A stretch of 60,676 nt of DNA, taken from positions 1 through 60,676 of the IMG/VR virus record IMGVR_UViG_3300044731_001504; one strand, written 5' to 3'. Below are positions 11,528-57,326 of this stretch, one piece after another; within the stretch, counting starts at the first letter, position 1; each line of letters starts with the position of its first letter. The position numbers and the translations under genes are program-made. The notes beneath the pieces are model-generated. The model had not been told where the DNA came from. It searched no databases and worked only from the letters and a program-made list of their open reading frames with translations. Source of the stretch: a virus.

Positions 11528-13576
11528 ATGACAGAACCATTGGATAATGACAAAAACAACAGTAACAAGGGTAAATCCGAATCTTCAACCACTCCAGCGT
11601 TGGACAATTTTAGTAAGGATTTAATTAAACTTGCAGAACAAGGTAAGTTAGACCCCGTTATTGGTAGAGAAAAAGAGATTTTGAGAATTGCTCAAATCCT
11701 ATCTCGTAGAAAGAAAAACAACCCGATTATCATTGGGGAACCTGGATGTGGTAAAACCGCATTGGCTGAGGGATTGGCTATGAAAATCCACCAAGGTGAG
11801 TGTCCTCGTAATTTGATGGACAAACGAATTCTGTCTTTGGATATGACATCAATTGTTGCAGGAACAAAGTATCGTGGTCAGTTTGAAGAACGTATGAAGG
11901 TAGTGATTGAAGAATTACAAGCAAACCCTGACATCATTGTGTTTATTGATGAAATCCACACAATTGTCGGAGCAGGTAATTCATCAGGTTCATTGGACGC
12001 ATCGAACATCTTCAAACCAGCACTTGCTCGTGGTGAGATTCAATGTATTGGAGCAACCACATTGGATGAATATCGTAAAAACTTTGAGAAGGACGGAGCG
12101 TTGGAGCGTCGTTTCCAAAAAGTAATTGTTGACCCATCTTCAGCTGATGAGACATTGGAAATTCTTAAAAACATTAAGGATAGATATGAGACATTCCATA
12201 AAGTTCATTTCACTGAAGAAATTTTGACCACTTGTGTTCGTTTGGCGGAACGATACATCACAGACCGAGAATTTCCTGATAAAGCAATTGATATCTTGGA
12301 TGAGGTAGGTGCTCGTAGTCAAGTTGAGATTAAAATGCCTGATGTTATTGAAGATTTAAAAGCTCAAGCATCTGAAATTAAACTACAAAAAATTCAAGTA
12401 GTTAAAAGTCAGAAATATGAAGAGGCGGCCGAGTTGAGAGATAAAGAAAGAAAAATCTTAACAAAACTTGAAGGTGAAAAGGAGAAGTTTGAATTAGAAC
12501 TTTTGGAGAAGAAGAAACAAATTCCAATTGAATTGGTTTATGAAGTTGTTTCAAATATGACTAAAATTCCATTGTCCAAACTTTCTTTAGATGATTCAAA
12601 GTCATTGGTTAATCTTGAAGAAACTTTATCAGGTAAAGTAATTGGACAGGATGATGCGGTTAAACGAATTTCAAAAGCAATTCGTAGAAATCGTTTGGGA
12701 ATTAAAGACCCAAATAAACCAATTGGTTCATTCATCTTCTTGGGTTCAACAGGTGTAGGTAAGACATACTTGGCAAAACAATTGGCCAAAGAAATTTTTG
12801 GAAGTGATGAAAGTCTAATCCGAGTTGATATGTCTGAATACCAAGAGAAACATTCCATTTCAAAATTGATTGGAGCACCTCCCGGATATGTTGGATATGA
12901 CCAAGGTGGACAATTGACCGAACAAATTAAAAACAAACCTTATTGTGTTATTTTGTTTGATGAGATTGAAAAGGCCAACAAAGATGTATTTTCATCGTTA
13001 CTTCAAGTATTGGACGATGGTCATTTGACAGACGGATTGGGTAGAAAAATCAACTTCAAAAATTGCTTAATCATTATGACTTCAAACTTGGGTATCAAAA
13101 AACTACAAGAGTTTGGTGCAGGTGTTGGATTTAGTACATCTCAAAACACATTTGCAATTGAGGAGAACAGAAAGAACCTTTTACAGAAAGAAATGAAGAA
13201 TTTCTTCAGTCCTGAGTTCTTAAATCGTATTGACGATATTGTAATCTTCAATTCATTGAAAGAGGATGAGATTGAAAAAATTGCAAACATTGAATTGGTT
13301 AAACTTAAAAATCGTTTGTCTGAAATGAAATACGATATCTCATTTGATGAGAATGTTATCAAGTATATTTCTAAAAACGGGTTTGATGAATTGTATGGGG
13401 CACGTCCACTAAAAAGAGCAATCCAAGACAAACTTGAGGACTTCATTTCAGATGAAGTGTTGAAGGGAACCATTGTTGAGGGAGGTCAATACACAATATC
13501 AATTAAAGATGATAATGTGACTCTTGAACAGAAAGAACAAGAAGTGAAAAAGACAAGAAAGAAAAAGGGAGAATAA
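11528..13576 (+). CDS. ClpC-like AAA+ unfoldase lacking the N-terminal Clp-N domain
   Basis: A 682-residue Hsp100 unfoldase with two AAA+ modules. Module 1 has Walker A GEPGCGKT (70-77), Walker B VFIDE (138-142) and arginine finger block GALERRF. A short middle segment carries EEAAELRDKE, the UVR-like pattern of ClpC. Module 2 has Walker A GSTGVGKT, Walker B VILFDEIEKA and the GYVGYDQGG pore loop. After TSNLG it carries GAGVGFSTSQ, and VGF at this place is the ClpP-docking tripeptide of ClpC, so it may feed host ClpP. The usual 140-150 residue Clp-N adaptor domain is replaced by about 28 polar residues. It is read from a host-type promoter, opposite to its neighbours. Confidence 0.93.
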   Translation: MTEPLDNDKNNSNKGKSESSTTPALDNFSKDLIKLAEQGKLDPVIGREKEILRIAQILSRRKKNNPIIIGEPGCGKTALAEGLAMKIHQGECPRNLMDKRILSLDMTSIVAGTKYRGQFEERMKVVIEELQANPDIIVFIDEIHTIVGAGNSSGSLDASNIFKPALARGEIQCIGATTLDEYRKNFEKDGALERRFQKVIVDPSSADETLEILKNIKDRYETFHKVHFTEEILTTCVRLAERYITDREFPDKAIDILDEVGARSQVEIKMPDVIEDLKAQASEIKLQKIQVVKSQKYEEAAELRDKERKILTKLEGEKEKFELELLEKKKQIPIELVYEVVSNMTKIPLSKLSLDDSKSLVNLEETLSGKVIGQDDAVKRISKAIRRNRLGIKDPNKPIGSFIFLGSTGVGKTYLAKQLAKEIFGSDESLIRVDMSEYQEKHSISKLIGAPPGYVGYDQGGQLTEQIKNKPYCVILFDEIEKANKDVFSSLLQVLDDGHLTDGLGRKINFKNCLIIMTSNLGIKKLQEFGAGVGFSTSQNTFAIEENRKNLLQKEMKNFFSPEFLNRIDDIVIFNSLKEDEIEKIANIELVKLKNRLSEMKYDISFDENVIKYISKNGFDELYGARPLKRAIQDKLEDFISDEVLKGTIVEGGQYTISIKDDNVTLEQKEQEVKKTRKKKGE

Positions 13577-15591: not shown

Positions 15592-15974
15592 GGGGATGTT
15601 TTTGGCTTTGACAGGAATGAATTTGTCATAAAACGCACGTCGGGGCTAAGCTAACCCTGTAGAACTGGCTTAAACTGTAAACGGCAACGTTATCAACAAA
15701 CTTTCAGTAGCTGGATTAATCCGTACTGAAGAAGTAGCAGTAGCTTAATCTGAGATTAACCTACGAAGGGGTCGGCAGACATACAACCTTGCAACAGAAG
15801 TCGTAGCTGTGGTGTGGTTTCTACCCGAAAAGAAACAAAACCCTTGTTTGTCAGGTATGGAAGGGTAATCTAATCTGACTATTTTGGGATATTGAGAACC
15901 AATATCAACCTAAGCGTGTAGTGTTTTATGGTAGACATTTTTGGACCCGGGTTCGACCCCCGGCATCTCCACCA
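15592..15974 (+). ncRNA. ssrA: tmRNA (transfer-messenger RNA)
   Basis: A one-piece tmRNA of about 383 nt. The 5' end GGGGATGTTTTTGGCTTTGA has the usual tmRNA acceptor and D-like arm and pairs with CATCTCC at the 3' end; CCA is encoded (15972-15974). The T arm is CCGGG-TTCGACC-CCCGG. The message part follows GTAAAC: a frame opens with GGC at 15683 and stops at TAA 15746-15748, giving a 21-residue tag GNVINKLSVAG...EEVAVA. tmRNA frees stalled ribosomes and tags the peptide for Clp-type proteolysis, so the ClpC-like gene nearby is a natural partner. A hairpin terminator follows. Confidence 0.93.
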
Positions 15975-34943: not shown

Positions 34944-36020
34944 ATGAATAAATCTTTTGTGTTATTAGAAGAAGTTGACCATATGATTCAGTCATTAACT
35001 GAGTCTAAATTATCAAGAGAGGAACATTTATTGAATATTGTTAATCTTTTAAAATATAATAAAATTAAATCAAAAAAAATTTCATTTTTATTACAGGATA
35101 TAAAATCTCAATCAGATGATATGACTGTAGATTTTGAATTACTTGAAAGAGGATTAAGAAAGACTTTAACTAAAAAGGGTAATAAAAAAGAAAATTGCGA
35201 ATTTTATTTTGACAGCGTTTGGAAATCTTTAAACAAAAGAAAATTTCAAGATGATGACGACGATTCAGAACAAGATGAGCCATCTATTCTCCCAAAGAAA
35301 GTTTTTAAAAGAGAATTATTTTCATTGCAGGTTGAGTTATTAAAATTACAGGAATGGTTATCTAAAACAAACAAAACTGTAATTGTTGTATTTGAAGGTC
35401 GTGATTCTGCGGGTAAGGGTTCAACAATCAAAAAGTTTACAGAGAATATGAATCCAAGATACTATAAAATTATTGCTCTTGGAATTCCAACACCTGATGA
35501 AAGAGCAAATTGGTGGAAAAGATATGAAGACCAGATTGAAAAGGGAAAAGTAAATTTATTTGATAGGAGTTGGTATAATAGAGGTTTAGTAGAACCTGTT
35601 ATGGGTTATGGAACTCCTGAAGAATACGAAGATTTTATGGAAAATGTTCAGGGGTTTGAGGAGTCATTAGTTAAGGATGGTGATTATCTATTTAAACTAT
35701 GGTTTTCGATTGATAAGGAGACTCAAGCTCAAAGATTTGAATTTAGACAAAAGTCCCCATTGAAGTATTGGAAATATTCTAAAAATGACGAGAAAATGCA
35801 AGAAGTATGGGATACATTTACTGAATATAAAGAAAAGTTATTTGATAAAACTTCAACGGTAAATCATCCTTGGGTTGTTTTGGATTCAAACGATAAGAAA
35901 ATTTCGGGATTAAATGCTATTAGATATATCTTACAAAATATACCATATGAAGGTAAAAATGAAGAATTATTAGATAAAGAGTTTCCTGAAGCTATGTCAG
36001 TGTTAAGACCAAAAATTTAA
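34944..36020 (+). CDS. Polyphosphate kinase 2 family protein with unique N-terminal extension
   Basis: A 358-residue protein. The C-terminal 235 residues are a PPK2 domain: Walker A EGRDSAGKGS (151-160), lid region MNPRYYKIIALGIPTPDER, WWKRYEDQIEKGK and Walker B LFDRSWYNRGLVEPVMGYG. PPK2 enzymes move phosphate between polyphosphate and (d)NDP/NMP, so it may make NTPs from host polyphosphate. The first 120 residues are not PPK2; they contain LTESKLSREEH (18-28) and an acidic run DDDDDSEQDE (103-112), similar to packaged leader-class proteins. It ends in a TTAA stop overlap with the next gene. Confidence 0.88.
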   Translation: MNKSFVLLEEVDHMIQSLTESKLSREEHLLNIVNLLKYNKIKSKKISFLLQDIKSQSDDMTVDFELLERGLRKTLTKKGNKKENCEFYFDSVWKSLNKRKFQDDDDDSEQDEPSILPKKVFKRELFSLQVELLKLQEWLSKTNKTVIVVFEGRDSAGKGSTIKKFTENMNPRYYKIIALGIPTPDERANWWKRYEDQIEKGKVNLFDRSWYNRGLVEPVMGYGTPEEYEDFMENVQGFEESLVKDGDYLFKLWFSIDKETQAQRFEFRQKSPLKYWKYSKNDEKMQEVWDTFTEYKEKLFDKTSTVNHPWVVLDSNDKKISGLNAIRYILQNIPYEGKNEELLDKEFPEAMSVLRPKI

Positions 36021-38827: not shown

Positions 38828-39637
38828 TTACTGTTGAGATAATTGAATTGCTCTTACTAATCTTGTAATGCCAATTCCACCTCCAAATCTTGGGATAAAT
38901 GAATGAGATAAGAATTCATCTAATTCTTTGTTAACTCTTTCTTTACCAAATAGTTCATACAACTTATTTGCATATCCACCTTCAGAAATTGTATTGAAGA
39001 AGTTTCTCATTTCAACAGGATTTGTTGAGCGTTCTGCGGAACCTATTGTTTCCTGTCCCATTAAGATAATATCAATCTTACTGAATAATTTATCCCCGGC
39101 GTATTTCATATTCCAAAATGGTGAAGTTCTTTCAGGGAACATTGTAATAGCAACTGATTTACCTAATCCTGTAACCATCTTTTCCTCGTGTTCCGCAGTC
39201 AATATTTCAACATTATATTTTCTACATAAGTCATCATAAGTTAAAACGATTGGGGCAGGTAATCCCATAAATTGAACCAATTCAATTTCAAGGTTTAACA
39301 AATCTTGGATAGTTCCTTTCGCCTCAAATTCAAACATAGGGAAAATCTTTTCGTGTCTACCCTCAATTGGGTTAGGTTCATTTCTGTAGGATGTTGAAAT
39401 ACAGAATACACCTGGCCAAGATGGGTTTTTAAGTAATTCATACTCCAACCACATTTGTCCTGTTTGAGGTAATGGCCAAACAACATTGTCATAAGTGAAT
39501 GTTGATACTGTGTGAGGGTCTTCACACGCCGCTAAGATTGATAATCTTGATTGTACTGGAACTTCAATGAATCCCTTCTTCAAGAAAAATGCTCGTAGTT
39601 TCTGGACTACGTTGTGATAATTAATTGTGTCTTTCAT
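38828..39637 (-). CDS. Stand-alone class II Asx-tRNA-synthetase-like catalytic domain
   Basis: A 269-residue protein equivalent to the catalytic domain of class IIb AspRS/AsnRS. It has motif 2, FCISTSYRNEPNP then EGRHEKIFPMFEFE (about 92-118), and motif 3, GGGIGITRLVRAI (about 252-264). The N-terminal OB-fold anticodon-binding domain is absent. Similar stand-alone proteins include archaeal asparagine synthetases derived from AspRS and EpmA-like modification enzymes, so it probably makes an amino-acyl product rather than aminoacylating tRNA. Terminator at 39681-39700 marks its upstream boundary. Confidence 0.75.
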   Translation of the reverse strand: MKDTINYHNVVQKLRAFFLKKGFIEVPVQSRLSILAACEDPHTVSTFTYDNVVWPLPQTGQMWLEYELLKNPSWPGVFCISTSYRNEPNPIEGRHEKIFPMFEFEAKGTIQDLLNLEIELVQFMGLPAPIVLTYDDLCRKYNVEILTAEHEEKMVTGLGKSVAITMFPERTSPFWNMKYAGDKLFSKIDIILMGQETIGSAERSTNPVEMRNFFNTISEGGYANKLYELFGKERVNKELDEFLSHSFIPRFGGGIGITRLVRAIQLSQQ

Positions 39638-47798: not shown

Positions 47799-48152
47799 TT
47801 ATTCTTCAGTAAAATATATTCCAATTAATTGGTCCATAGATAATCCAAGTCGCCTAAGACCTACTATTATCATAAATTCCTTTTCAGTTATTTCATTACC
47901 CAAAAAATCCATAAAGAAATAACGTTCTTTATGTTGTCTTTGATATAACCATTTGAAATTCCCAATGGTGATTAAATACATTGGTCCATAATTATTCAAA
48001 TATAAATTAAGTTGCCAACTTGTGATATAATCATCAAATCTCATTGGGACATCATACTTAGTTTGAACTAACTCTATTTTACCTGTAAGGTCAACATTGT
48101 ATTTATCCTTGATAAAACTTTTTAACGATGACTCTGTAATAATATATTTCAT
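47799..48152 (-). CDS. Leader-class protein, MKYIITESS type
   Basis: A 117-residue protein starting MKYIITESSLKSFIKDKYNV, one of the MKYLITES leaders with ITE at 5-7. The body has aromatic strands (YLNNYGPMYLITIGNFKWLY). No family recognised. Late-type box at plus 48158-48164. Confidence 0.65.
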   Translation of the reverse strand: MKYIITESSLKSFIKDKYNVDLTGKIELVQTKYDVPMRFDDYITSWQLNLYLNNYGPMYLITIGNFKWLYQRQHKERYFFMDFLGNEITEKEFMIIVGLRRLGLSMDQLIGIYFTEE

Positions 48153-48177
48153 TATTAATAAATACCTATTCTAATAA

Positions 48178-48202
48178 AAAAACCCCAATTAAGGGGTTTT
48201 TA
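48178..48202 (-). terminator. Terminator
   Basis: Stem AACCCC/GGGGTT (CCCC 48183-48186, GGGG 48193-48196) with an AT-rich loop and T run on the minus strand; located after the 48204-48404 gene's end. Confidence 0.75.
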
Positions 48203-48203
48203 A

Positions 48204-48404
48204 TTAGTTAATACCTTCGTTGAATTTTGTTCTAATCTCCTCTAATTCCTCTTCAGTAAAATCGTCCTCATACTCAATATCTTCAATCCAAGTATCGTAA
48301 TCATCACTACGAGCAATTACAGAGAATTCTCTTCCATCTTCAGTTGTGCCGTCATACTTCTTTAGACAGAACATCAACATTTCATTTTCAAAATCTATAT
48401 TCAT
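48204..48404 (-). CDS. Acidic small protein
   Basis: A 66-residue protein, strongly acidic at its end (EDIEYEDDFTEEELEEIRTK). Size and charge resemble DNA-mimic or inhibitor proteins, but that is only a possibility. The stop lies next to the terminator; the gene follows its neighbour by 2 nt. Confidence 0.55.
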   Translation of the reverse strand: MNIDFENEMLMFCLKKYDGTTEDGREFSVIARSDDYDTWIEDIEYEDDFTEEELEEIRTKFNEGIN

Positions 48405-48406
48405 AA

Positions 48407-48685
48407 TTAGTCAAATCTACATTCGTTTTCTTCGCCTGTAATTTTTTCTCTGATTACACCAGAGTCGCGACAATCTTCCGCCAAACTATCATAAACATCA
48501 TCGTTCACGGCTTTCATATCCCACCAATTTTCTGAAATGTAATTTTGCATTTCTTCTTCGGTCATTCCATTAAGTTCGGGGTAGTCCTCAACATTAATTT
48601 CAACAGGTTCTCTAACAACCATCGTGTTGTAATACTCAACCATTCTAACTGAAATGGTCTTGGGTGTTTCGTTTGTATTTTCCAT
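48407..48685 (-). CDS. Small acidic protein with conserved WWDMKAV motif
   Basis: A 92-residue protein with ELNGMTEEEMQNYISENWWD (about 33-52) followed by MKAVNDDVYDSLAEDC, a short helix-strand pattern I have seen in other phage proteins of unknown role. Coupled to the 48204 gene. No promoter box recognised. Confidence 0.55.
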   Translation of the reverse strand: MENTNETPKTISVRMVEYYNTMVVREPVEINVEDYPELNGMTEEEMQNYISENWWDMKAVNDDVYDSLAEDCRDSGVIREKITGEENECRFD

Positions 48686-48722
48686 AATATTAATTTTAAA
48701 TAATAATATGAAAAATAATTCA

Positions 48723-49490
48723 TTATCTCAAACTAAATTTAACGGGAATTGTCATTTTTAACGAAACAGGATTACCATTCATTTTTGCCGGAACAAATTT
48801 ACCTAACATTTTAACAGCATTCACCGCACACTCCCCAAATTTTTGACTTTCTTCACAGGGTCTAACTATTTCAATGTTTGAAACATCTCCATCCTTATTA
48901 ACCACAAATGAAACATATAACATACACTCCAATCCAAAATTCTTTTCTTGTTGTGGATATACAATATATTTTGCTAAATCTTCATATAAATCCCCATTAT
49001 ATTTTGGCATTTCTTGAGCATAAGTGAAAATCTGTTCAGTTTGTTTTTTAACCTCAACAACGGCATCATCAAATGGTTCATATACATTTGAGCTGTCATC
49101 AGAGTTATCATATCCGATTTTTTGTCTCCACATTTCATCAACACTTTTTAAATTATCAAAAATTTCATCGTCAGTAACTTCGATATCAGTAAATTTAACA
49201 TTAGAACGAAATGAAGATTTATTTTGAACCTCCTCAACTTTTTTTGGTTCAACAACTTTTTTTGGTTTTTCTTCAATAGGTTTTATGAAATATTCAGTGG
49301 TGGTTATTATCACTTCAGGTTTTATTAGTTCATTTGACCTCATTATCATTGGCAATGCAAAAATTAATGTGATAAAAGAACATGCCACAAATGTTGATAA
49401 CATTAATCGTTTTGGATAGTTCATCCGAAGTTTGTACGCCCCGTAATCCTTTACGCGACCATCAAAAATTAAATCAAGATACTTTTTCAT
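48723..49490 (-). CDS. TonB-like energy transducer
   Basis: A 255-residue protein with the Bacteroidetes TonB plan. The N-terminus DLIFDGRVKDYGAYKLRMNY is the start typical of Bacteroidetes energy transducers, followed by one membrane helix (about 31-50, MLSTFVACSFITLIFALPMI), a Lys/Pro/Glu/Val linker (KPIEEKPKKVVEPKKVEEVQ) and the TonB C-terminal domain (about 180-255: YVSFVVNKDGDVSNIEIVRP, GNPVSLKMTIPVKFSL). TonB couples the inner-membrane proton-motive force to outer-membrane transporters. A phage copy could energise receptor-dependent entry, alter nutrient uptake, or block superinfection. A hairpin (49491-49530) abuts its start codon. Confidence 0.88.
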   Translation of the reverse strand: MKKYLDLIFDGRVKDYGAYKLRMNYPKRLMLSTFVACSFITLIFALPMIMRSNELIKPEVIITTTEYFIKPIEEKPKKVVEPKKVEEVQNKSSFRSNVKFTDIEVTDDEIFDNLKSVDEMWRQKIGYDNSDDSSNVYEPFDDAVVEVKKQTEQIFTYAQEMPKYNGDLYEDLAKYIVYPQQEKNFGLECMLYVSFVVNKDGDVSNIEIVRPCEESQKFGECAVNAVKMLGKFVPAKMNGNPVSLKMTIPVKFSLR

Positions 49491-49530
49491 AACCTTTTTT
49501 TCCTCTGTACATCTAAGAAGAAAAAAGGTT
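49491..49530 (-). promoter_or_regulatory. Hairpin touching the tonB start codon
   Basis: A 10-bp perfect stem AACCTTTTTT/AAAAAAGGTT with a loop of about 20 nt ends at the base immediately before the ATG (49490). It lacks a downstream T run, so it is more likely a translation-controlling structure than a terminator. Confidence 0.45.
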
Positions 49531-49536
49531 CATATT

Positions 49537-49887
49537 TTACCAATCAATTCCAGGACCAAATTTCCTTTCATCTTTTATTTCATTTTCAATAAGTTCAATA
49601 TTTGGTCCAAATACTGGACTTATTCTGGCTTCAATTTCAGATATTAAATCATCAAAATAGTAGTATGGGTAACTAATGTATATATCAATATAAACTTTTA
49701 ATTTTTTAGATATCTCAATACCTGAGACTTTAATTTTATCTACGGAATCCACCTGTTTAATTTCACCCATCATATCCATACTCCAATCTTCACTTTCTTC
49801 CTTAATATTTTTAAGTGCAATATCAATTGCTCGTTGAATTGGGGTATGTAATTTTGTTAATTGAGATTCGGTTATAAGATATTTCAT
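49537..49887 (-). CDS. Leader-class protein, MKYLITESQ type
   Basis: A 116-residue protein from ATG 49887 (MKYLITESQLTKLHTPIQRA). The longer in-frame start at 49959 lies inside the upstream metalloprotease gene. Leader ITE at 5-7, then NIKEESED as second site. Body contains VYIDIYISYPYYYFDDLISE. No family recognised. Start is 4 nt after the preceding stop, so it is coupled with the metalloprotease. Confidence 0.65.
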   Translation of the reverse strand: MKYLITESQLTKLHTPIQRAIDIALKNIKEESEDWSMDMMGEIKQVDSVDKIKVSGIEISKKLKVYIDIYISYPYYYFDDLISEIEARISPVFGPNIELIENEIKDERKFGPGIDW

Positions 49888-49891
49888 AGAA

Positions 49892-51043
49892 TTAAGCTGT
49901 TGGATAATTTGGTGAACTTGTGGCAGAATTGATTTTTTTAGAGTTCTGAACATACTCATTTTTCCAATCGTTGTACATTGCGTCTAAATTAACCGTATAA
50001 TCTACTTTTTCTTCCTCATATTTACTACCATCAAAAACATCATCAACCATCGTGTAATTTGAAAATAGATAAACTAAATCATCATTAATTTTTCCATTTG
50101 ATAGGACATACATCACCCTATCTTTTAATGATTCACAATTTTCATCCAATTTTATAACATTAGATTCTATACTATATGGGCACCCCTCAAAAGAAATGGT
50201 TTTGTCTTCCATCGCTTTTTTAATTGAGGTAACAAAAGTATTTAAATCGGACGATATGGTTAAACCGTATTTGCTTAATATGTTAAATAATGTTTTAAAC
50301 CTAACAAACTGCTCATCAGTATCTCTTTGGTATTCTCCCCACATCAGATAGTTGTCGTTTGCCATTGATTGGTGTGGGAATGGGACTATACCACTATCAA
50401 TACGAACACCTTTATGTAAAATAATTCCGTTATTTGCAAACCAATTGTCAATTAAATGACCCAACTCGTGTTGGATTGTGTTTTTCCAATCTTCTGAATC
50501 TCCAATTTTATAATTGTCAACAAATAAAACTGAACTTAATCCACATATGAATATTTTTGGGCCATATGCACTGTCAGTTAACATTAATGTATCTGGCGAT
50601 TTTTCATTATAAGTGAAATCTAACTCAAAATTAACTTTATTAAATAAATCACTTTTCATTGATTCAATAACTTTAATTATATTTTCCTTACTTGTTTTTT
50701 TTCCATTTTTTTCTGATATCATAATAATTTTATCCAAAATTTCAGGATTTTTATTATAATCAAAATAATCAATATAGAATTGTTTCGCATCAGGTAAAAG
50801 TGATTGAGCATATTCAATTGGTTTTAAATCCCGAATTCTTTTTTCAACATACTCTTGTAAATCAAACTTGCATTTTCCTCTTTTATATACGTCAGTATAA
50901 GGGATTTTGTCAGACCAATTTTGTTCAATCCACTCTTGACAGGTTTGGGAAGGTTTTCCTTCTTCAACTTCTTTTAATATATGTGAATATAGACCTCTAA
51001 TATAATTTTTTTCAGACTCTGTTATAATAAATTTTTGTCCCAT
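49892..51043 (-). CDS. Leader-class HELGH zinc metalloprotease
   Basis: A 383-residue protein. The start MGQKFIITESEKNYIRGLYS followed by HILKEVEEGK joins the ITES leader to the helix-plus-IKE type, with ITE and LKE sites. The zinc helix NTIQHELGHLIDNWF is at about 186-200; a plausible third ligand lies further on. Cysteines CQEWIEQNW and KCKFDLQ occur near the start. The substrate could be host envelope or cytosolic protein after ejection (inferred). Late-type box at plus 51049-51055. Confidence 0.72.
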   Translation of the reverse strand: MGQKFIITESEKNYIRGLYSHILKEVEEGKPSQTCQEWIEQNWSDKIPYTDVYKRGKCKFDLQEYVEKRIRDLKPIEYAQSLLPDAKQFYIDYFDYNKNPEILDKIIMISEKNGKKTSKENIIKVIESMKSDLFNKVNFELDFTYNEKSPDTLMLTDSAYGPKIFICGLSSVLFVDNYKIGDSEDWKNTIQHELGHLIDNWFANNGIILHKGVRIDSGIVPFPHQSMANDNYLMWGEYQRDTDEQFVRFKTLFNILSKYGLTISSDLNTFVTSIKKAMEDKTISFEGCPYSIESNVIKLDENCESLKDRVMYVLSNGKINDDLVYLFSNYTMVDDVFDGSKYEEEKVDYTVNLDAMYNDWKNEYVQNSKKINSATSSPNYPTA

Positions 51044-51055
51044 ACTTTATAAATA

Positions 51056-51373
51056 TTAGTCACAACCATCAGTTCTATCTTCAAAAACAAATTCTATTCT
51101 ATCACTAAATGTTTCAGAACAATAATTGTGGATTACTTTATATATCGGAGAGGTGTTATCAAAATCAAAATAATCAAATAACTCATCTTGATGATATGAA
51201 GACCATATGCGAAAAGTTGTCCCCTCCAAAATCATTTCGTTCCATTCTTCAGGATTCTCCAAATAATTGCAAGGGTCACTATCATCCATTTCATCCTCCA
51301 ATAAATCCGCCATATGTTCAATCATAAGAGGGTCATTCAATCTTCGTCTAAATCTAATAACATTAACATCCAT
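51056..51373 (-). CDS. Acidic hypothetical protein
   Basis: A 105-residue protein, MDVNVIRFRRRLNDPLMIEH, very acidic in the middle (LEDEMDDSDPCNYLENPEEW). No motif was recognised. Coupled to its neighbours; no promoter box. Confidence 0.55.
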   Translation of the reverse strand: MDVNVIRFRRRLNDPLMIEHMADLLEDEMDDSDPCNYLENPEEWNEMILEGTTFRIWSSYHQDELFDYFDFDNTSPIYKVIHNYCSETFSDRIEFVFEDRTDGCD

Positions 51374-51380
51374 AGTACTA

Positions 51381-52319
51381 TTATAATAAAACTAACATAA
51401 CGTAAAATCTTCCATCGCTCAAAGGACCTACCAAAATTTTGGATTTATTTCCGTTTAACTTATCATTGTCTGGTTTTATATTGTTATCCCATCTATTCAT
51501 TAAATCATGATAATCAGGGTCAACAATAATTGAAAGATTTTGTGGGACTGATGTTTCACCAGGTTCTAATGTTAATGTAAGACTTTTTAAATTAAAATTT
51601 ATTTTATCGGTATTAATTGAAATTCCTTTTGTTTGATTTTTTACATTTTCTCTTAATTGCTCATAATTATTACCAGTAATTATTATTTTGTCCTCATCAT
51701 TAACTGTATTATTAATTTTGGGATTAACATCAATTTTATCGTTAGCATTATCAAAATCATAATTATATCTGTCTGATTTGTATCTATAAAAAATTTGTTT
51801 AAACTCTTTTTTAGGGTTTCCTCCACCATCGTAATAGTAAGAATTTATCTCCTCAATCTCTGTAATGTTAAATGACGGGTTTTTACTAGCAGCACTTTGT
51901 ATAATACTATCGGAACCATTATTTATAGAAGGGTCATTATTACCTGCCCTATATTTAACATTATCACCACATCCCGCACCTCTACTTGATAATCCATCCC
52001 AATTCTCATCACTTTCCTCTAAAGTTACACTCCATTTTACCGTCCACCCTTGAACTGAAACATCCACTTTTGTAGGTTTTATTTTTATACCCTGTTCATT
52101 TAATTCTTTTATTCTATTTTGAACTATTTCATTCATATTACCTTTTTTACTGAACGCATGTAAAGAATCACAATTATTATCAGTTATTGTATATGATGAA
52201 AAAACTATCATATCATTTGTATTTTCAGATTGTTCAACAATTAATGGTTTAACATCTCCCATTGTTGATTCCATCAATTTGTAAAATCTTTTTTTATAAT
52301 TTTCAATATTTTTAGACAT
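51381..52319 (-). CDS. Leader-class protein with FYKLMESTMGDVKPLIVEQS
   Basis: A 312-residue protein. The leader reads RFYKLMESTMGDVKPLIVEQ followed by SENT (about 11-34), with LME and IVEQS sites. The body is Asn/Asp/Ser-rich and beta-like (GWTVKWSVTLEESDENWDG), ending in a hydrophobic strand (GRFYVMLVLL). No family known. Late-type box at plus 52336-52342. Confidence 0.65.
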   Translation of the reverse strand: MSKNIENYKKRFYKLMESTMGDVKPLIVEQSENTNDMIVFSSYTITDNNCDSLHAFSKKGNMNEIVQNRIKELNEQGIKIKPTKVDVSVQGWTVKWSVTLEESDENWDGLSSRGAGCGDNVKYRAGNNDPSINNGSDSIIQSAASKNPSFNITEIEEINSYYYDGGGNPKKEFKQIFYRYKSDRYNYDFDNANDKIDVNPKINNTVNDEDKIIITGNNYEQLRENVKNQTKGISINTDKINFNLKSLTLTLEPGETSVPQNLSIIVDPDYHDLMNRWDNNIKPDNDKLNGNKSKILVGPLSDGRFYVMLVLL

Positions 52320-52396
52320 AATAATATTTTTTTATATAAATACTTCTGTAAAATAAAAAACCCCCTCAATTGATAGATAGGTTTGTTTTTCACTAA

Positions 52397-53080
52397 CTAA
52401 TCAAAATTTTTTAACACTTCAATAACTTTATTAGTCAATTCATCATAATCCGCAAATATTACGGAATCAATAACATCGTGACTAGTTTCACTCACAACAG
52501 TGTGACCGACGGACATAAATGGAAAGCACCTAATTTGTTCAAAACAAAACATTTTATCTGAATAGTGAATATTTAATAAAATTTTTGATTTTCTAATTAT
52601 TTTATCTCTCTCTTCTCCAAATAACCCATTGTGATAACCAATAACTTTAACATTAATTCCTTTAGATGAAATTTGATTTACAATGTTTTCCCTTCTTCTA
52701 CTCATCCATCCAACAACACAAACATCATAATCATATATATTGTCAATATTATATGATATTAATTTTTCCTTGTACTCATCCCAAGCCTCCATTTTTATAT
52801 ATTTTGTCTTGAATATATTATGCCTATTTAATAATTCAATATTATACGTACTAAATGTCCATATTTCATAGATATGGTTTTGGGATAAACTATTATAATA
52901 CAAATAAGAATCACTAGTTTCTTCATCTGTTAATTGTTCGGTCATAAATAAAATATGTTTCTCATTACTCATTGAGTGCTTAACATGTATCGGATATTCG
53001 GCTTTAGGGCACAAGTCAGATTTTAAAAAATTATTTAACTCAATGAAATGAGGGTACTCCTGACTATAAACAATATTCAT
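52397..53080 (-). CDS. Glycosyltransferase-like protein (CgeB/GT-B type)
   Basis: A 227-residue protein from ATG 53080. The in-frame region up to 53134 overlaps a terminator hairpin (53107-53126), so the shorter start is used. It shares the pattern YDVCVVGWMSRRRENIVNQI, NVKVIGYHNGLFGEERDKII, RKSKILLNIHYSDKMFCFEQ with the first domain of the 18975-21848 protein, pointing to a common CgeB-like origin. The catalytic Glu region is FEQIRCFPFMS. Late-type box at plus 53087-53093. Confidence 0.72.
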   Translation of the reverse strand: MNIVYSQEYPHFIELNNFLKSDLCPKAEYPIHVKHSMSNEKHILFMTEQLTDEETSDSYLYYNSLSQNHIYEIWTFSTYNIELLNRHNIFKTKYIKMEAWDEYKEKLISYNIDNIYDYDVCVVGWMSRRRENIVNQISSKGINVKVIGYHNGLFGEERDKIIRKSKILLNIHYSDKMFCFEQIRCFPFMSVGHTVVSETSHDVIDSVIFADYDELTNKVIEVLKNFD

Positions 53081-53105
53081 ATAATGATAAATACCCTTGT
53101 GAAAT

Positions 53106-53130
53106 AAAAAACCCCTCATTGAGGGGATTT
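53106..53130 (-). terminator. Terminator of the 53154-53456 gene
   Basis: Stem CCCCTC/GAGGGG (53112-53117, 53121-53126) with ATT loop, flanked by A and T runs. Confidence 0.75.
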
Positions 53131-53153
53131 TCAAAATATTTTTAAATTAATTA

Positions 53154-53456
53154 TTAATATTTAATACTCAAATGTCCAGGTATCATAGAATGATTACCTA
53201 TTTTTCGGTTCCCAACTATCTTATCTAGTTTTAGATATTCATTAATACTTAATGATTGAACTCTTTTTGGAAATACAATGTATTTTTCACTTTCATCTTT
53301 TTTAACTTCATATCTAAGTTCGTTATTAATCGCCTTAACCATTTGGTCAATACTTGAATTAACTTCAGATGACTTATCATCTTTTTTAGATTCATTTACA
53401 ATTTTTCCAATTAATCTAGTTAATTCGGATTCTGTTAATTTAACAACTTTTTTCAT
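53154..53456 (-). CDS. Leader-class protein, MKKVVKLTES type
   Basis: A 100-residue protein starting MKKVVKLTESELTRLIGKIV followed by NESKKDDKSS, with LTES at 7-10 and VNES at 20-23. The body is a charged helix and short strands ending HLSIKY. Late-type box at plus 53471-53477. It is the first of the tandem series of this leader class. Confidence 0.65.
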   Translation of the reverse strand: MKKVVKLTESELTRLIGKIVNESKKDDKSSEVNSSIDQMVKAINNELRYEVKKDESEKYIVFPKRVQSLSINEYLKLDKIVGNRKIGNHSMIPGHLSIKY

Positions 53457-53496
53457 AATGGTGTTTTATAATAAATATATCACCAAACAAAAAATT

Positions 53497-53997
53497 CTAT
53501 ACCTCATCTTCAGAATGTTTCATAATACTTACAGGTTCCACAAATGTCCCCTTCAAATCAGACATTTCTTTTTTATACTGCTCAATGGTTTCAGCAGAAT
53601 AGATTGGAGCGAATAATGGACGATGACTAAACGGAACATTATCTCGGTTTTCCCAATCCACCAATTCTTTTTCCCATCCAGGAATGTGGGTTTCTATAAA
53701 CCTATAATTTTTCCATTTCTCCAAATCTTCTTTTGTTGGGACAAATTTAACATCTCCATAGTTTTCAATATCCAAATCAGGATTGTTTGTGTAAACATCA
53801 ACAACACCTTCGTCACCGAAATAACGATAACATAACTCCTGAACCGTATGCGGGTTTATATGTTTTTCTTTCCAGTTCCTTCCATAAGAACGAACATCAC
53901 AGATATAGAAATACCCATCCTCAAAAGAATTAATTTTGGAGTCAACTTCATTCTTTAATTTAATGAGCTCATCAAAAGTGTAGTTATCTAAATTCAT
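53497..53997 (-). CDS. Hypothetical protein with leaderless host-type promoter
   Basis: A 166-residue protein from ATG 53997 (MNLDNYTFDELIKLKNEVDS). The upstream in-frame ATG at 54015 is excluded because it lies inside the promoter (54002-54032). Aromatic- and acid-rich (PDLDIENYGDVKF, WKNYRFIETHIPGWEKELVD). No family recognised. Its early-type promoter contrasts with the late-type promoters all around it. Confidence 0.6.
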   Translation of the reverse strand: MNLDNYTFDELIKLKNEVDSKINSFEDGYFYICDVRSYGRNWKEKHINPHTVQELCYRYFGDEGVVDVYTNNPDLDIENYGDVKFVPTKEDLEKWKNYRFIETHIPGWEKELVDWENRDNVPFSHRPLFAPIYSAETIEQYKKEMSDLKGTFVEPVSIMKHSEDEV

Positions 53998-54001
53998 AGA
54001 G

Positions 54002-54032
54002 CAAATATAAAACAAAAAACCCCATCAAACAA
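54002..54032 (-). promoter_or_regulatory. Leaderless host-type promoter, overlaps a terminator loop
   Basis: The minus strand reads TTG-N20-TATATTTG, then exactly 4 nt to the ATG at 53997. The -33 TTG is inside the loop of the terminator at 54018-54044. Confidence 0.6.
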
Positions 54033-54044
54033 ATGAATGGGGTT
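54018..54044 (-). terminator. Terminator of the 54070-54441 gene
   Basis: Stem AACCCCAT/ATGGGGTT (54018-54025, 54037-54044) with an 11-nt loop. Confidence 0.6.
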
Positions 54045-54069
54045 TAAATTATTTTCTATACAATACTTG

Positions 54070-54441
54070 TTAAACCGGTAAAGGACAATATTTTGACCTT
54101 ATTTCATTCTCAACATTCGGCTCAAGTGTTGAATATCCAGAATAACCGCATTTACACGGGTCTTGGTCTGCACGTTTTACATATGCATAACCTGTCTCAC
54201 AATCAAAATACAAAACTTTCCCTTTCCATTCTTCACTATCTATAATTTCAAATTTAACAAGTTCTGTTCCTTCGTAATCAACTTTTTCCAAATATTCTAT
54301 AGTTAATACTCCCCAATCTTTTCTTTCTTGTTTGTACGGATTATAAAGTTTTGTTTTATAAATTCCTTCAGATTGTTCTTTTATAACTCTTTTAACAAGT
54401 TTAATCAAATCTGATTCTGTTAATCTTACAACTTTTTTCAT
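54070..54441 (-). CDS. Leader-class paralogue 1 of tandem array
   Basis: A 123-residue protein: leader MKKVVRLTESDLIKLVKRVI then KEQSEGIYKTK (LTES and IKEQS), body with WGVLTIEYLEKVDYEGTELV, KVLYFDCETGYAYVKR and CKCGYSGYSTLEPNVENEIR. Two other genes (54454, 55295) share the same body; the body has several cysteines. It is the downstream-most copy of the array and has no late-type box of its own; it probably shares transcripts with 54454. Confidence 0.7.
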   Translation of the reverse strand: MKKVVRLTESDLIKLVKRVIKEQSEGIYKTKLYNPYKQERKDWGVLTIEYLEKVDYEGTELVKFEIIDSEEWKGKVLYFDCETGYAYVKRADQDPCKCGYSGYSTLEPNVENEIRSKYCPLPV

Positions 54442-54453
54442 AATTAATTTATT

Positions 54454-54825
54454 TTAACTTTGCAAAGGACAATATTTTGACCTTATTTCATTTTCAACAT
54501 TCGGCTCAAGTGTTGTGTACCCACCAATACCCAGACCACATCTGCATACTTCCTCGTCTGGTCTTTTTATATATGCATACCCTGTTTCACAATCAAAATA
54601 CAAAACCGCAGACGCCCAATTGGGATTTTTAATTTCAAATTTAACAAGTTCTGTTCCTTCGTAATCAACTTTTTCCAAATATTCTATAGTTAATACCCCC
54701 CAATTTGTTTCCTTTCTGTCTCGACTATAAATTTTTGTTTTATAAATCCCTTCAGATTGTTCTTTTATAACTCTTTTAACAAGTCTAATCAAATCTGATT
54801 CTGTTAATCTTACGACTTTTTTCAT
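54454..54825 (-). CDS. Leader-class paralogue 2 of tandem array
   Basis: A 123-residue protein closely similar to the 54070 and 55295 copies (leader MKKVVRLTESDLIRLVKRVI then KEQSEGIYKTKIYS), differing in the Cys loop (EEVCRCGLGIGGYTTLEPNV). Shares WGVLTIEYLEKVDYEGTELV exactly with paralogue 1 over 20 residues. The upstream leader DNA has a decayed late-type box (TATTGT), so the copy may be expressed from further upstream. Confidence 0.7.
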   Translation of the reverse strand: MKKVVRLTESDLIRLVKRVIKEQSEGIYKTKIYSRDRKETNWGVLTIEYLEKVDYEGTELVKFEIKNPNWASAVLYFDCETGYAYIKRPDEEVCRCGLGIGGYTTLEPNVENEIRSKYCPLQS

Positions 54826-54849
54826 ATTAATATTTTACAATAGTTAAGA

Positions 54850-55260
54850 TTACATTTCATCATCCCCATTAATATTGGGAGAATTAAAAAATTCATCAAT
54901 TAATGCAATTTCTTCTTTAGCTAGTCTATAAATTGTTTTCAGATTAGGACATCCATAGGTTTTAGATAATTTAAACATCTTCATAATGTTTTCTTTAGCG
55001 GCGTTATTCATTATATCTCCAATCTGAGAAATTTCCTCAGGTTTCACATTAAATTCTATTAAATCTTTTCTTACCTGAAGTATTTCGTATTCCATTTCGT
55101 TACAAAATCTTCTCGTACCTTCACCATGACGTGTAAAGATATGACCCGTTTTACTTGACGGAAAAGAATCATCAGGATAAGGTATTTCACCACCCTCTTT
55201 AATAACCTTTTTAATTAAACCTATCAAATCAGATTCGGTTAATCTTACAACTTTTTTCAT
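54850..55260 (-). CDS. Leader-class protein with the array leader but different body
   Basis: A 136-residue protein: leader MKKVVRLTESDLIGLIKKVI then KEGGEIPYPDD, but the body (SSKTGHIFTRHGEGTRRFCN, IGDIMNNAAKENIMKMFKLS) is unrelated to the flanking paralogues. It has one His/Arg/Cys patch and helices. The same promoter plus leader on a different body indicates cassette swapping. Late-type box at plus 55275-55281. Confidence 0.7.
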   Translation of the reverse strand: MKKVVRLTESDLIGLIKKVIKEGGEIPYPDDSFPSSKTGHIFTRHGEGTRRFCNEMEYEILQVRKDLIEFNVKPEEISQIGDIMNNAAKENIMKMFKLSKTYGCPNLKTIYRLAKEEIALIDEFFNSPNINGDDEM

Positions 55261-55294
55261 AATAATATTTTACAATAAATATATCAGATTTATT

Positions 55295-55660
55295 CTAAAT
55301 TGGTAACGGACAATATTTTGACCTTATTGCGTCTTCAACATCTTGTTCAAGTCTTGTTTGACCATAAGAGCTACACGTACAATCTATTTCAATTTTAGGT
55401 TTAACATATGAAAAACCTGTTTCACAATCAAAAAGCAAAAATTCATCTTCCCAATTTGTAATTTTAAATTTTACAAGTGTCGTATTTTTGTAATCAACAT
55501 TTTTTAAATATTCTAAAGTCATTTCCTCACCACTAAATTTTATTTTGGACCTGTCAGAATTATAAATTTTTGTTTTATATGTTGTATCAGATTGTTCTTT
55601 TATAACTCTTTTAACAAGTTTAATCAAATCTGATTCTGTTAATCTTACAACTTTTTTCAT
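55295..55660 (-). CDS. Leader-class paralogue 3 of tandem array
   Basis: A 121-residue protein with the same leader (MKKVVRLTESDLIKLVKRVI, then KEQSDTTYKTK) and a diverged body (EEMTLEYLKNVDYKNTTLVK, FLLFDCETGFSYVKPKIEID, CTCSSYG). It is the most distant of the three paralogues. Cut after IKE would leave about 98 residues. Late-type box at plus 55675-55681. Confidence 0.7.
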   Translation of the reverse strand: MKKVVRLTESDLIKLVKRVIKEQSDTTYKTKIYNSDRSKIKFSGEEMTLEYLKNVDYKNTTLVKFKITNWEDEFLLFDCETGFSYVKPKIEIDCTCSSYGQTRLEQDVEDAIRSKYCPLPI

Positions 55661-55674
55661 ATTAATATTTTACA

Positions 55675-55740
55675 ATAAATATATCTGAAAATAAAAAGGG
55701 GGTAGGGGGGATTGGAACAACGGGGAAAAAAATTTTTATT
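55675..55740 (-). repeat. Repeated G-rich intergenic element, copy 1
   Basis: Promoter box plus AAAAAGGGGGTAGGGGGGAT, then TGGAACAACGGGG and AAAAAAATTTTTAT. A second copy with 95% identity over about 65 nt is at 57333-57397. On the coding (minus) strand it is C-rich and follows a stop codon. Confidence 0.85.
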
Positions 55741-56017
55741 CCCTATCAGAATATTCAAGATACACCCCGATTTCATTTTTAATCCCAAGTTTTTTCAGGG
55801 TATCAAAAATTAGAGATTTAATATCTTGCCAAACTTCAATGTAGTTCATAATAAATGGTTCAAAGTCAATGAATAAAAAAACATTGTACCTAAAATTTTT
55901 TTCATCATCTCTATAATAGCTACGCATATCACGTTCAGTTGTCACCTCAACATTATTAAAACCAGGATATTTCTTATCCAAGATATGCGTAACAACAGTT
56001 TTAATATAATTCTCCAT
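55736..56017 (-). CDS. Hypothetical protein
   Basis: A 93-residue protein, MENYIKTVVTHILDKKYPGF, Arg/Tyr/Phe-rich (RSYYRDDEKNFRYNVFLFID). No family recognised. The end overlaps the G-rich element by a few nt. Confidence 0.55.
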   Translation of the reverse strand: MENYIKTVVTHILDKKYPGFNNVEVTTERDMRSYYRDDEKNFRYNVFLFIDFEPFIMNYIEVWQDIKSLIFDTLKKLGIKNEIGVYLEYSDRE

Positions 56018-56020
56018 ATC

Positions 56021-56434
56021 TTAACATTTTCCAGTATTATATACCTTAACATTGTGACCTCTAAACAATCCACCACCATATTTAAATAACATCTTAGAAA
56101 TAATCTCGTTATAGATATTCACGGTTCCTTCGTCAAACATATATCTCAATCTATTTTCGGGTGATGGTTCGGGAATAAACATAACCAAATCAAACGAATA
56201 CTGGGTGGGAATAATCTGATAATCACAATATCTTAATCCAGTCTTGGGAAAATCCTTTTCCATAAGAATCTTTGCCAAATATATCATATCTTTTTTAGAA
56301 CCAGTTATACCTGTTATGGAAATAATCTTCTCAGGAGTTATACCTAGTATATTGGATAATTTTTCCATTCCATATTTTTCCAATAATTGTCTAATGGTTT
56401 CACTAGCTTGGGATTCGGTTATAAGATATTTCAT
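56021..56434 (-). CDS. Leader-class protein, MKYLITESQ type
   Basis: A 137-residue protein starting MKYLITESQASETIRQLLEK, with ITE at 5-7. Body has LSNILGITPEKIISITGITG and a basic C-terminus (GGGLFRGHNVKVYNTGKC). No family recognised. Immediately precedes the 55736 gene (3 nt). Confidence 0.65.
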   Translation of the reverse strand: MKYLITESQASETIRQLLEKYGMEKLSNILGITPEKIISITGITGSKKDMIYLAKILMEKDFPKTGLRYCDYQIIPTQYSFDLVMFIPEPSPENRLRYMFDEGTVNIYNEIISKMLFKYGGGLFRGHNVKVYNTGKC

Positions 56435-56450
56435 ATATCAATAAAAAGGA

Positions 56451-57326
56451 TTATTTCTTACAGAATCTATTTATATTCCACTCACCGCTTTTTGATTTGT
56501 TATAGTCCGCCAAAAACTTTCCATCTTTTGTGGAATGAATTCTATCAAAAGTACCAGCTCCTTTTTTACCAACAAATGTCACACCACAATATTGCTCAAC
56601 AGCTCTTTCCGTATTCTTATCGTAGAATGGTTCAGGAATAATTGTTTTTTCGGGTTCAATTGCCGTTGTGGTTATTACAGGCGGAGTTGTGGTTGTTGTG
56701 GTAATAATTGGCTCAACAACGGGAGAGGTTGTTTTGGTTGTTACAACAACAGGTTCCTCATAAACAGGTTTGATTGGAGGTTTAACAACTGGTAACCAAA
56801 GGTTTGCGAAGCGTTTATCCCATCCCCCATAGTCATGTCTCCATGAAGTGATAATATCTTTTAATTTAAAATCACTAAATATTTTATAATAAACGTCAGC
56901 ATCATTTTTAGTAATAGTAAGCGTACTATATCGGATAAAATTACTTGATTTGTATAAATCTGAAACATGAGGTTCTCCAATTGATGTAGAATAAATGAAA
57001 TCCATCATATATGCCGGCCAATTAAGCCAGTTACTCAAACTTGTATTCCCCACTAATTTTTTTTGATAATCATATTCATTACCTTCTGTTGAATACTCCA
57101 CGTCAAACCTAATGTTTCCATTTTTAATACTCTTGCCTTTCATACTGAATGAGCCATCAGACGTATTTTCGTTTTTTTTGTTTCTGGTGAAATAATCATA
57201 AAACATTTTTTGAACATTATAAATGTCCATTGCGGCTTTATATTTCTTTTTATCTGTATAAACCTTTTGTTCAGATAAAACTTGCTTAAGAGAGCGATAT
57301 TGTGATTCTGTAATTAGATATTTCAT
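56451..57326 (-). CDS. Leader-class protein with Thr/Pro/Val linker
   Basis: A 291-residue protein. Leader MKYLITESQYRSLKQVLSEQ then KVYTDKKK; ITES and LSEQ sites. A Thr/Val/Pro-rich region (about 185-230: VTTKTTSPVVEPIITTTTTT) resembles a flexible stalk. The C-terminal 60 residues (AVEQYCGVTFVGKKGAGTFD, RIHSTKDG) look like a small folded domain with one Cys. Late-type box at plus 57333-57339. Confidence 0.65.
   Translation of the reverse strand: MKYLITESQYRSLKQVLSEQKVYTDKKKYKAAMDIYNVQKMFYDYFTRNKKNENTSDGSFSMKGKSIKNGNIRFDVEYSTEGNEYDYQKKLVGNTSLSNWLNWPAYMMDFIYSTSIGEPHVSDLYKSSNFIRYSTLTITKNDADVYYKIFSDFKLKDIITSWRHDYGGWDKRFANLWLPVVKPPIKPVYEEPVVVTTKTTSPVVEPIITTTTTTPPVITTTAIEPEKTIIPEPFYDKNTERAVEQYCGVTFVGKKGAGTFDRIHSTKDGKFLADYNKSKSGEWNINRFCKK

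Follow-up and report, generated by a model that had tools for sequence, protein, structure and literature searches.

We found that a phage of Bacteroidota bacteria carries the gene of a TonB, the energy transducer of outer-membrane import, with all its modules and the TonB fold. The gene has a host ancestry and is under purifying selection, and no ExbB gene was found in the phage. We propose, with a probability of about 0.6, that the protein is a working spare, which would act with the ExbB/ExbD of the host and keep outer-membrane import energised during infection.

In bacteria ExbB/ExbD drives TonB, which takes hold of the TonB box of receptors through its C-terminal domain (PMC10771500). TonB as such is well known, and SusC-like receptors have been reported in phages (PMC9723777); no description of a phage-encoded TonB was found in the open-access literature. 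The DNA studied here is a stretch of 60,676 nucleotides (IMG/VR record IMGVR_UViG_3300044731_001504), referred to below as the window.

The contig

The source record is a virus fragment; a T4-type portal, a large terminase and a head protease are encoded on it (Table 1). At least 598 relatives of the portal are present in IMG/VR, and the portal of Flavobacterium phage immuto is similar to it. An independent contig of 164 kb, G050, is syntenic over most of the window, with identities of 89% for the portal, 94% for the terminase and 71% for TonB. Contamination by host DNA or a chimaera as the source of tonB was rejected, because of the phage genes on the contig and its synteny with G050. The tonB-bearing contig comes from a genuine T4-like myovirus of Bacteroidota bacteria.

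Several other genes were observed in the window. A tmRNA gene (15592-15974, plus strand; Rfam RF00023, 130 bits) encodes, according to ARAGORN, the tag EKKQNPCLSGMEG, in which the usual LAA end is missing; no tmRNA was found when G050 was scanned with the same program. Further genes encode a polyphosphate kinase 2 family protein (34944-36020, plus strand; PF03976, E 3.7e-71), a ClpA/ClpB-type AAA protease ATPase (11528-13576, plus strand; phrog_4871, PF07724) and a class II aminoacyl-tRNA-synthetase-like protein of 269 residues (38828-39637, minus strand), 95.5% identical in G050. An N-terminal motif such as MKYLITESQ or MKKVVRLTESDL is common to at least 10 otherwise unlike ORFs, found at 47799-57326 of the window and 95278-163548 of G050; it occurs 10 times in the window (expectation from shuffles 0.02) and 5 times in G050. 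Our guess is that it might be a capsid-targeting or head-protease signal.

Table 1. Coordinates of tonB, its segments, its surroundings and the phage hallmark genes in the window; dN/dS ratios compare the window with G050 and are approximate.
Feature	Position	Strand	Evidence or remark
tonB	48723..49490	-	255-aa Bacteroidota-type TonB; PF03544 E 4.7e-14; 71% identical orthologue in G049 and G050; dN/dS 0.21
tonB residues 1-28, basic cytoplasmic N-terminal tail with the FxxRxKxYGAYxLRxxY motif	49407..49490	-	invariance in hosts; dN/dS 0.16
tonB residues 29-50, predicted membrane helix	49341..49406	-	hydropathy 2.15; AlphaFold helix 25-55; dN/dS about 0.9, on 22 codons only
tonB residues 51-153, periplasmic linker with KFTxIEVTDDE at 99-109	49032..49340	-	length and alignment with hosts; dN/dS 0.25
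tonB residues 154-255, TonB C-terminal, receptor-binding domain	48726..49031	-	pLDDT 87-96; Z 11.9; dN/dS 0.12
Inverted repeat AACCTTTTTT..AAAAAAAGGTT abutting the ATG	49491..49530	-	possible mRNA hairpin over the ribosome-binding region
92-aa ORF downstream of tonB, conserved	48407..48685	-	76% identical in G050
66-aa ORF, next after the 92-aa ORF	48204..48404	-	76% identical in G050
Terminator-like hairpin and T run, 3' of the 66-aa ORF	48176..48201	-	sequence AAAAACCCCTTAATTGGGGTTTTTTT; folds
TATTTAT promoter-like motif before gene 49892-51043	51049..51055	-	candidate start of transcription unit
Portal protein, phage hallmark	2518..4332	-	phrog_213 E 5e-68
Terminase large subunit, phage hallmark	4370..6133	-	phrog_2 E 5.6e-39
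Head maturation protease, phage hallmark	514..1248	-	phrog_207 E 1.8e-43

Layout and predicted structure of the protein

The tonB ORF has 255 codons, starts with ATG and contains no internal stop. The Pfam profile TonB_C matched residues 176-254 of the protein with 53 bits (cut-off 24.6), and the NCBIfam profile TIGR01352 (tonB_Cterm) passed its cut-off of 27.1 with a score of 41.7. In the motif of the N-terminal tail, five positions (the F, the first Y, and the G, A and R) do not vary among 52 full-length host TonBs, which had been picked by the presence of a looser form of this motif. The hydropathy profile shows one membrane segment (19-residue window from residue 31), and no other window exceeds 0.72 beyond residue 60. 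Since a net-basic tail (8 K/R versus 3 D/E) precedes this single hydrophobic segment, the N-terminus is predicted to lie inside. Hydropathy, charge and the AlphaFold helix together predict a membrane protein.

The linker is of host length, with a spacing from the tail motif to YP of 155 residues, compared with 147-178 in the 52 hosts. Many host linkers have a polyproline run, which this one lacks; its residues 51-153 include only 5 prolines, but some host TonBs (L187) are without such a run as well. In the phage protein a segment also follows the helix, at the place where HasB/TonB binds ExbD (PMC10771500).

The AlphaFold model, although built on a shallow alignment, gives a confident C-terminal domain. 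Its first match (Foldseek, VIA-align) is the FoxA-bound TonB 6i97_D, with 1.6 Å over 89 residues, and the top 13 rows of the PDB list are all TonB or FusB C-terminal domains; the domain thus has the predicted fold of a receptor-bound TonB. In a library of viral predicted structures no TonB fold was found, which is a mere absence. Two changes at near-invariant sites of the domain, G189C and V191L, are unusual. Cys189, which supplants a near-invariant glycine, Cys212 and Cys221 are common to both phage orthologues. The strands as paired in the model would bring Cys189 and Cys212 near each other, which makes a disulphide possible.

The initial annotation had described a complete Bacteroidetes-type TonB, with tail, helix, linker and C-terminal domain, in a phage, and the sequence, the model, the tree and the selection analysis given below confirm this description. 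Of the two results that would have spoken against it, a C-terminal domain without the TonB fold and a protein outside the membrane, neither was obtained, the membrane location being predicted.

Ancestry, selection and distribution

In a 56-row tree of TonBs, built without contig G770 (see below), those of the window and G050 grouped with 17 host rows, nearly all from the Flavobacteriales search, with a support of 99/99. The TonBs of a 735-kb phage and of contig G051 sat in a different host clade (support 98/93). The tree thus favours at least two acquisitions of TonB by phages and disfavours a single common origin, although the one-clade test was borderline (p-AU 0.062). Flavobacteriales host TonBs, such as L156, L157, L158 and L160, resemble the phage protein in their YGAYxLR-type tail, membrane helix and length, and Flavobacteriales relatives share with it the linker element KFTxIEVTDDE (F-T-x-I-E-V-T) and the C-terminal motif PAKMNGN. 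Overall identity to the Flavobacteriales host proteins is nevertheless only 30-37%, and the phage protein differs from them by the absence of a polyproline run and by C189/L191 in place of G/V. As judged from these sequences, the tonB of the window is derived from a Flavobacteriales-like host.

The dN/dS between the window and G050 was 0.21 for the gene and lowest, at 0.12, in the C-terminal domain; with a dS of about 0.9-1.2, which approaches saturation, these ratios are approximate. They indicate that tonB is selectively maintained in the phage. In the membrane segment, of 22 codons only, the individual residues are under little constraint, and hydrophobicity alone seems to be kept. The terminal strand NPV[SA]LKMTIPVKFSL is nearly unchanged between the phage orthologues. 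Purifying selection at both ends of the protein fits a working TonB, whereas a simple decoy would need one end.

Alignment scans of IMG/VR found tonB orthologues in G049 and G050 only, the tonB of G049 (35.6 kb) being the same as that of G050 at the nucleotide level; a single-sequence scan of viral contigs gave no match, so that alignment queries were needed. The 92-aa gene that neighbours tonB was found in 12 viral contigs; 10 of these, including contigs of 322, 208, 200 and 166 kb, have no TonB_C, which indicates that tonB is an accessory gene, rare and confined to one sub-lineage. No tonB was found in 48 portal relatives, but this is weak evidence because most of these records are fragments apparently short of the locus, a flanking marker gene being present in 0 of the 31 records searched for it. 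TonB matches in human-faecal entries named 'Bacteriophage sp.' (MT835586 and others) were not counted as phage TonBs. MT835586, the only one checked, is bacterial DNA, as read from translations of the MacB-like, LytTR-type regulator and glucose-6-phosphate dehydrogenase-like genes beside its tonB.

Neighbouring genes and expression signals

The hairpin before the ATG folds at -13.3 kcal/mol in the window and -10.9 kcal/mol in G050, with z about -2.2 in each; that it controls tonB translation is a guess. In G050 a gene of 105 codons sits between tonB and the 92-aa ORF. The motif TATTTAT lies on the sense strand at most 60 nt upstream of 28 of the 80 window genes, about tenfold more than the 2.8 expected, and also precedes 48 of 163 genes in G050, where its excess is again about tenfold. 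It is probably a phage promoter element. None occurs within 200 nt upstream of tonB, which probably belongs to a unit running 49892 > 49537 > tonB > 48407 > 48204 and closing at the terminator-like hairpin.

Other phage TonBs and their receptors

A full-length TonB (L002) is also encoded by the huge phage LR756501, of 735 kb. This protein and that of G051 (L089) are, like the window TonB, phage-borne, of the Bacteroidota type and under purifying selection (dN/dS 0.05). They differ from it by their separate clade in the tree, and their phages also encode a TonB-dependent receptor. The G051 protein (L089 898-1407) lacks 76 linker residues present in its 735-kb relative and is 96% identical elsewhere; the gap is either a real shortening or an assembly error.

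In both phages the receptor, of the plug-and-barrel type, lies in a NAD-salvage cluster (L215 3002-11475 of LR756501; L123), which is conserved in G051. The cluster comprises genes for a PnuC-type transporter, NadE (NAD synthase), PncB (nicotinate phosphoribosyltransferase), an isochorismatase-family nicotinamidase candidate and a NadR-like protein, so labelled from a profile match to its AAA domain only and from reading the remainder of the sequence by eye. These neighbours suggest NAD precursors as the cargo of the huge-phage receptor. It is known that phages can restore NAD in the face of NAD-depleting defences by means of other enzymes (PMC12846349). No NAD-salvage cluster was found in the window's phage, to which we extend NAD-precursor import by inference.

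G770 is a 46-kb myovirus contig that encodes baseplate proteins, thymidylate synthase and ribonucleotide reductase. Its TonB (L210) shares with that of the window a phage location, TonB_C and a membrane segment, and has a proline-rich linker; the YGAY tail is absent. A complete receptor gene (898 aa; carboxypeptidase-regulatory, plug and barrel domains) lies 3 kb downstream of tonB on the same strand. SusC-like receptors of the megaphages Mar_Mega_1 and LR745206 (PMC9723777) are likewise a phage-borne part of a TonB uptake system. They represent its receptor end, whereas the window TonB is the energy transducer.

ExbB was not found in 9 phage records, so the TonB would need a host partner. In the window's lineage, the genome of which is incomplete in the data, neither a TonB-dependent receptor gene nor an ExbB gene was found.

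Proposed role and alternatives

According to our proposal, the phage TonB would be made during infection and enter the inner membrane with the YGAY tail facing the cytoplasm; there it would join the host's own ExbB/ExbD motor. It would span the periplasm, and its C-terminal domain would bind host TonB-dependent transporters. Energy-driven uptake could then continue even as host synthesis is switched off by the phage, which would benefit through this uptake. In Escherichia coli, TonB function decays quickly once new synthesis stops. For this reason TonB may be the component that a phage gains most by replacing.

Among the roles put forward in the initial annotation, nutrient capture has gained indirect support, because the modules are kept, constraint is strongest in the receptor-binding domain, and TonB occurs together with a receptor in two unrelated lineages; for the entry of sibling phages and a block of superinfection we found no specific evidence. 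The two lineages suggest that some phages may keep host nutrient import running in infection. Against an import role count the receptor pairing, known only from other lineages, the many relatives without tonB, the unusual G189C and V191L, and the 76-residue gap of G051, which if real would make its linker unfit for ordinary TonB action.

A rather unlikely alternative is that surplus phage TonB excludes other phages, by competing for ExbB/ExbD or by locking receptors and so blocking their adsorption. TonB-dependent transporters serve as phage receptors and are targeted by exclusion lipoproteins, T5 Llp for example (PMC9586334), tail spikes of crAss-like phages have been docked onto TonB-dependent receptors (PMC10569736), and the window's lineage carries tonB only, without a receptor. 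The Llp/Cor proteins would share with the phage TonB a predicted action on these transporters from the periplasmic side; they are, however, small lipoproteins, whereas the window TonB has 255 residues and a membrane helix, and its only N-terminal cysteine (Cys37, in the helix) is not conserved in G050, so that it has no conserved lipobox cysteine of the Llp/Cor kind. One end would suffice for a decoy, yet the protein has kept its N-terminal tail, its linker length and its C-terminal domain; a pure decoy is harder to reconcile with a protein in which neither the ExbBD-side nor the receptor-side modules have been lost. Import is also the better fit to the two other lineages, in which TonB is paired with a receptor. 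The cysteines common to the phage orthologues, the two unusual substitutions and the linker deletion in G051 could instead indicate that the TonB scaffold now serves another purpose, periplasmic or in signalling, that has nothing to do with transport, but we regard this as improbable, given the almost constant terminal strand and the alignment of the model with receptor-bound TonB.

Some phages, such as T1 and phi80, require TonB for irreversible adsorption, and the phage protein might accordingly keep receptors energised for the phage itself or its siblings. This is very improbable, as a newly made protein comes too late for the first entry and energised receptors in an infected cell would invite competitors. 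The rarity of tonB among relatives would also fit a passenger gene without current function or an assembly artefact, an explanation hardly credible in view of the same gene at 71% identity in an independently assembled syntenic contig, and largely refuted already by the purifying selection.

A broader and tentative reading, less probable than the working spare itself, is that some Bacteroidota phages run their own outer-membrane import and borrow only ExbB/ExbD from the host. It takes jointly the TonB and receptor of G770 and the TonB, receptor, PnuC and NAD-salvage enzymes of the 735-kb phage; the window phage, with TonB alone, would be the minimal form. If true, such import would feed replication or refill NAD under NAD-depleting defences.

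TonB is the shared energy supply of nutrient import in Bacteroidota, and if a lytic phage brings its own TonB, phage production during infection would by implication be limited by uptake. If our proposal holds, it becomes testable whether TonB loses its function in infected cells and which nutrient phages need to import, and the TonB, receptor and NAD-precursor genes of other phages offer a concrete candidate for this nutrient.
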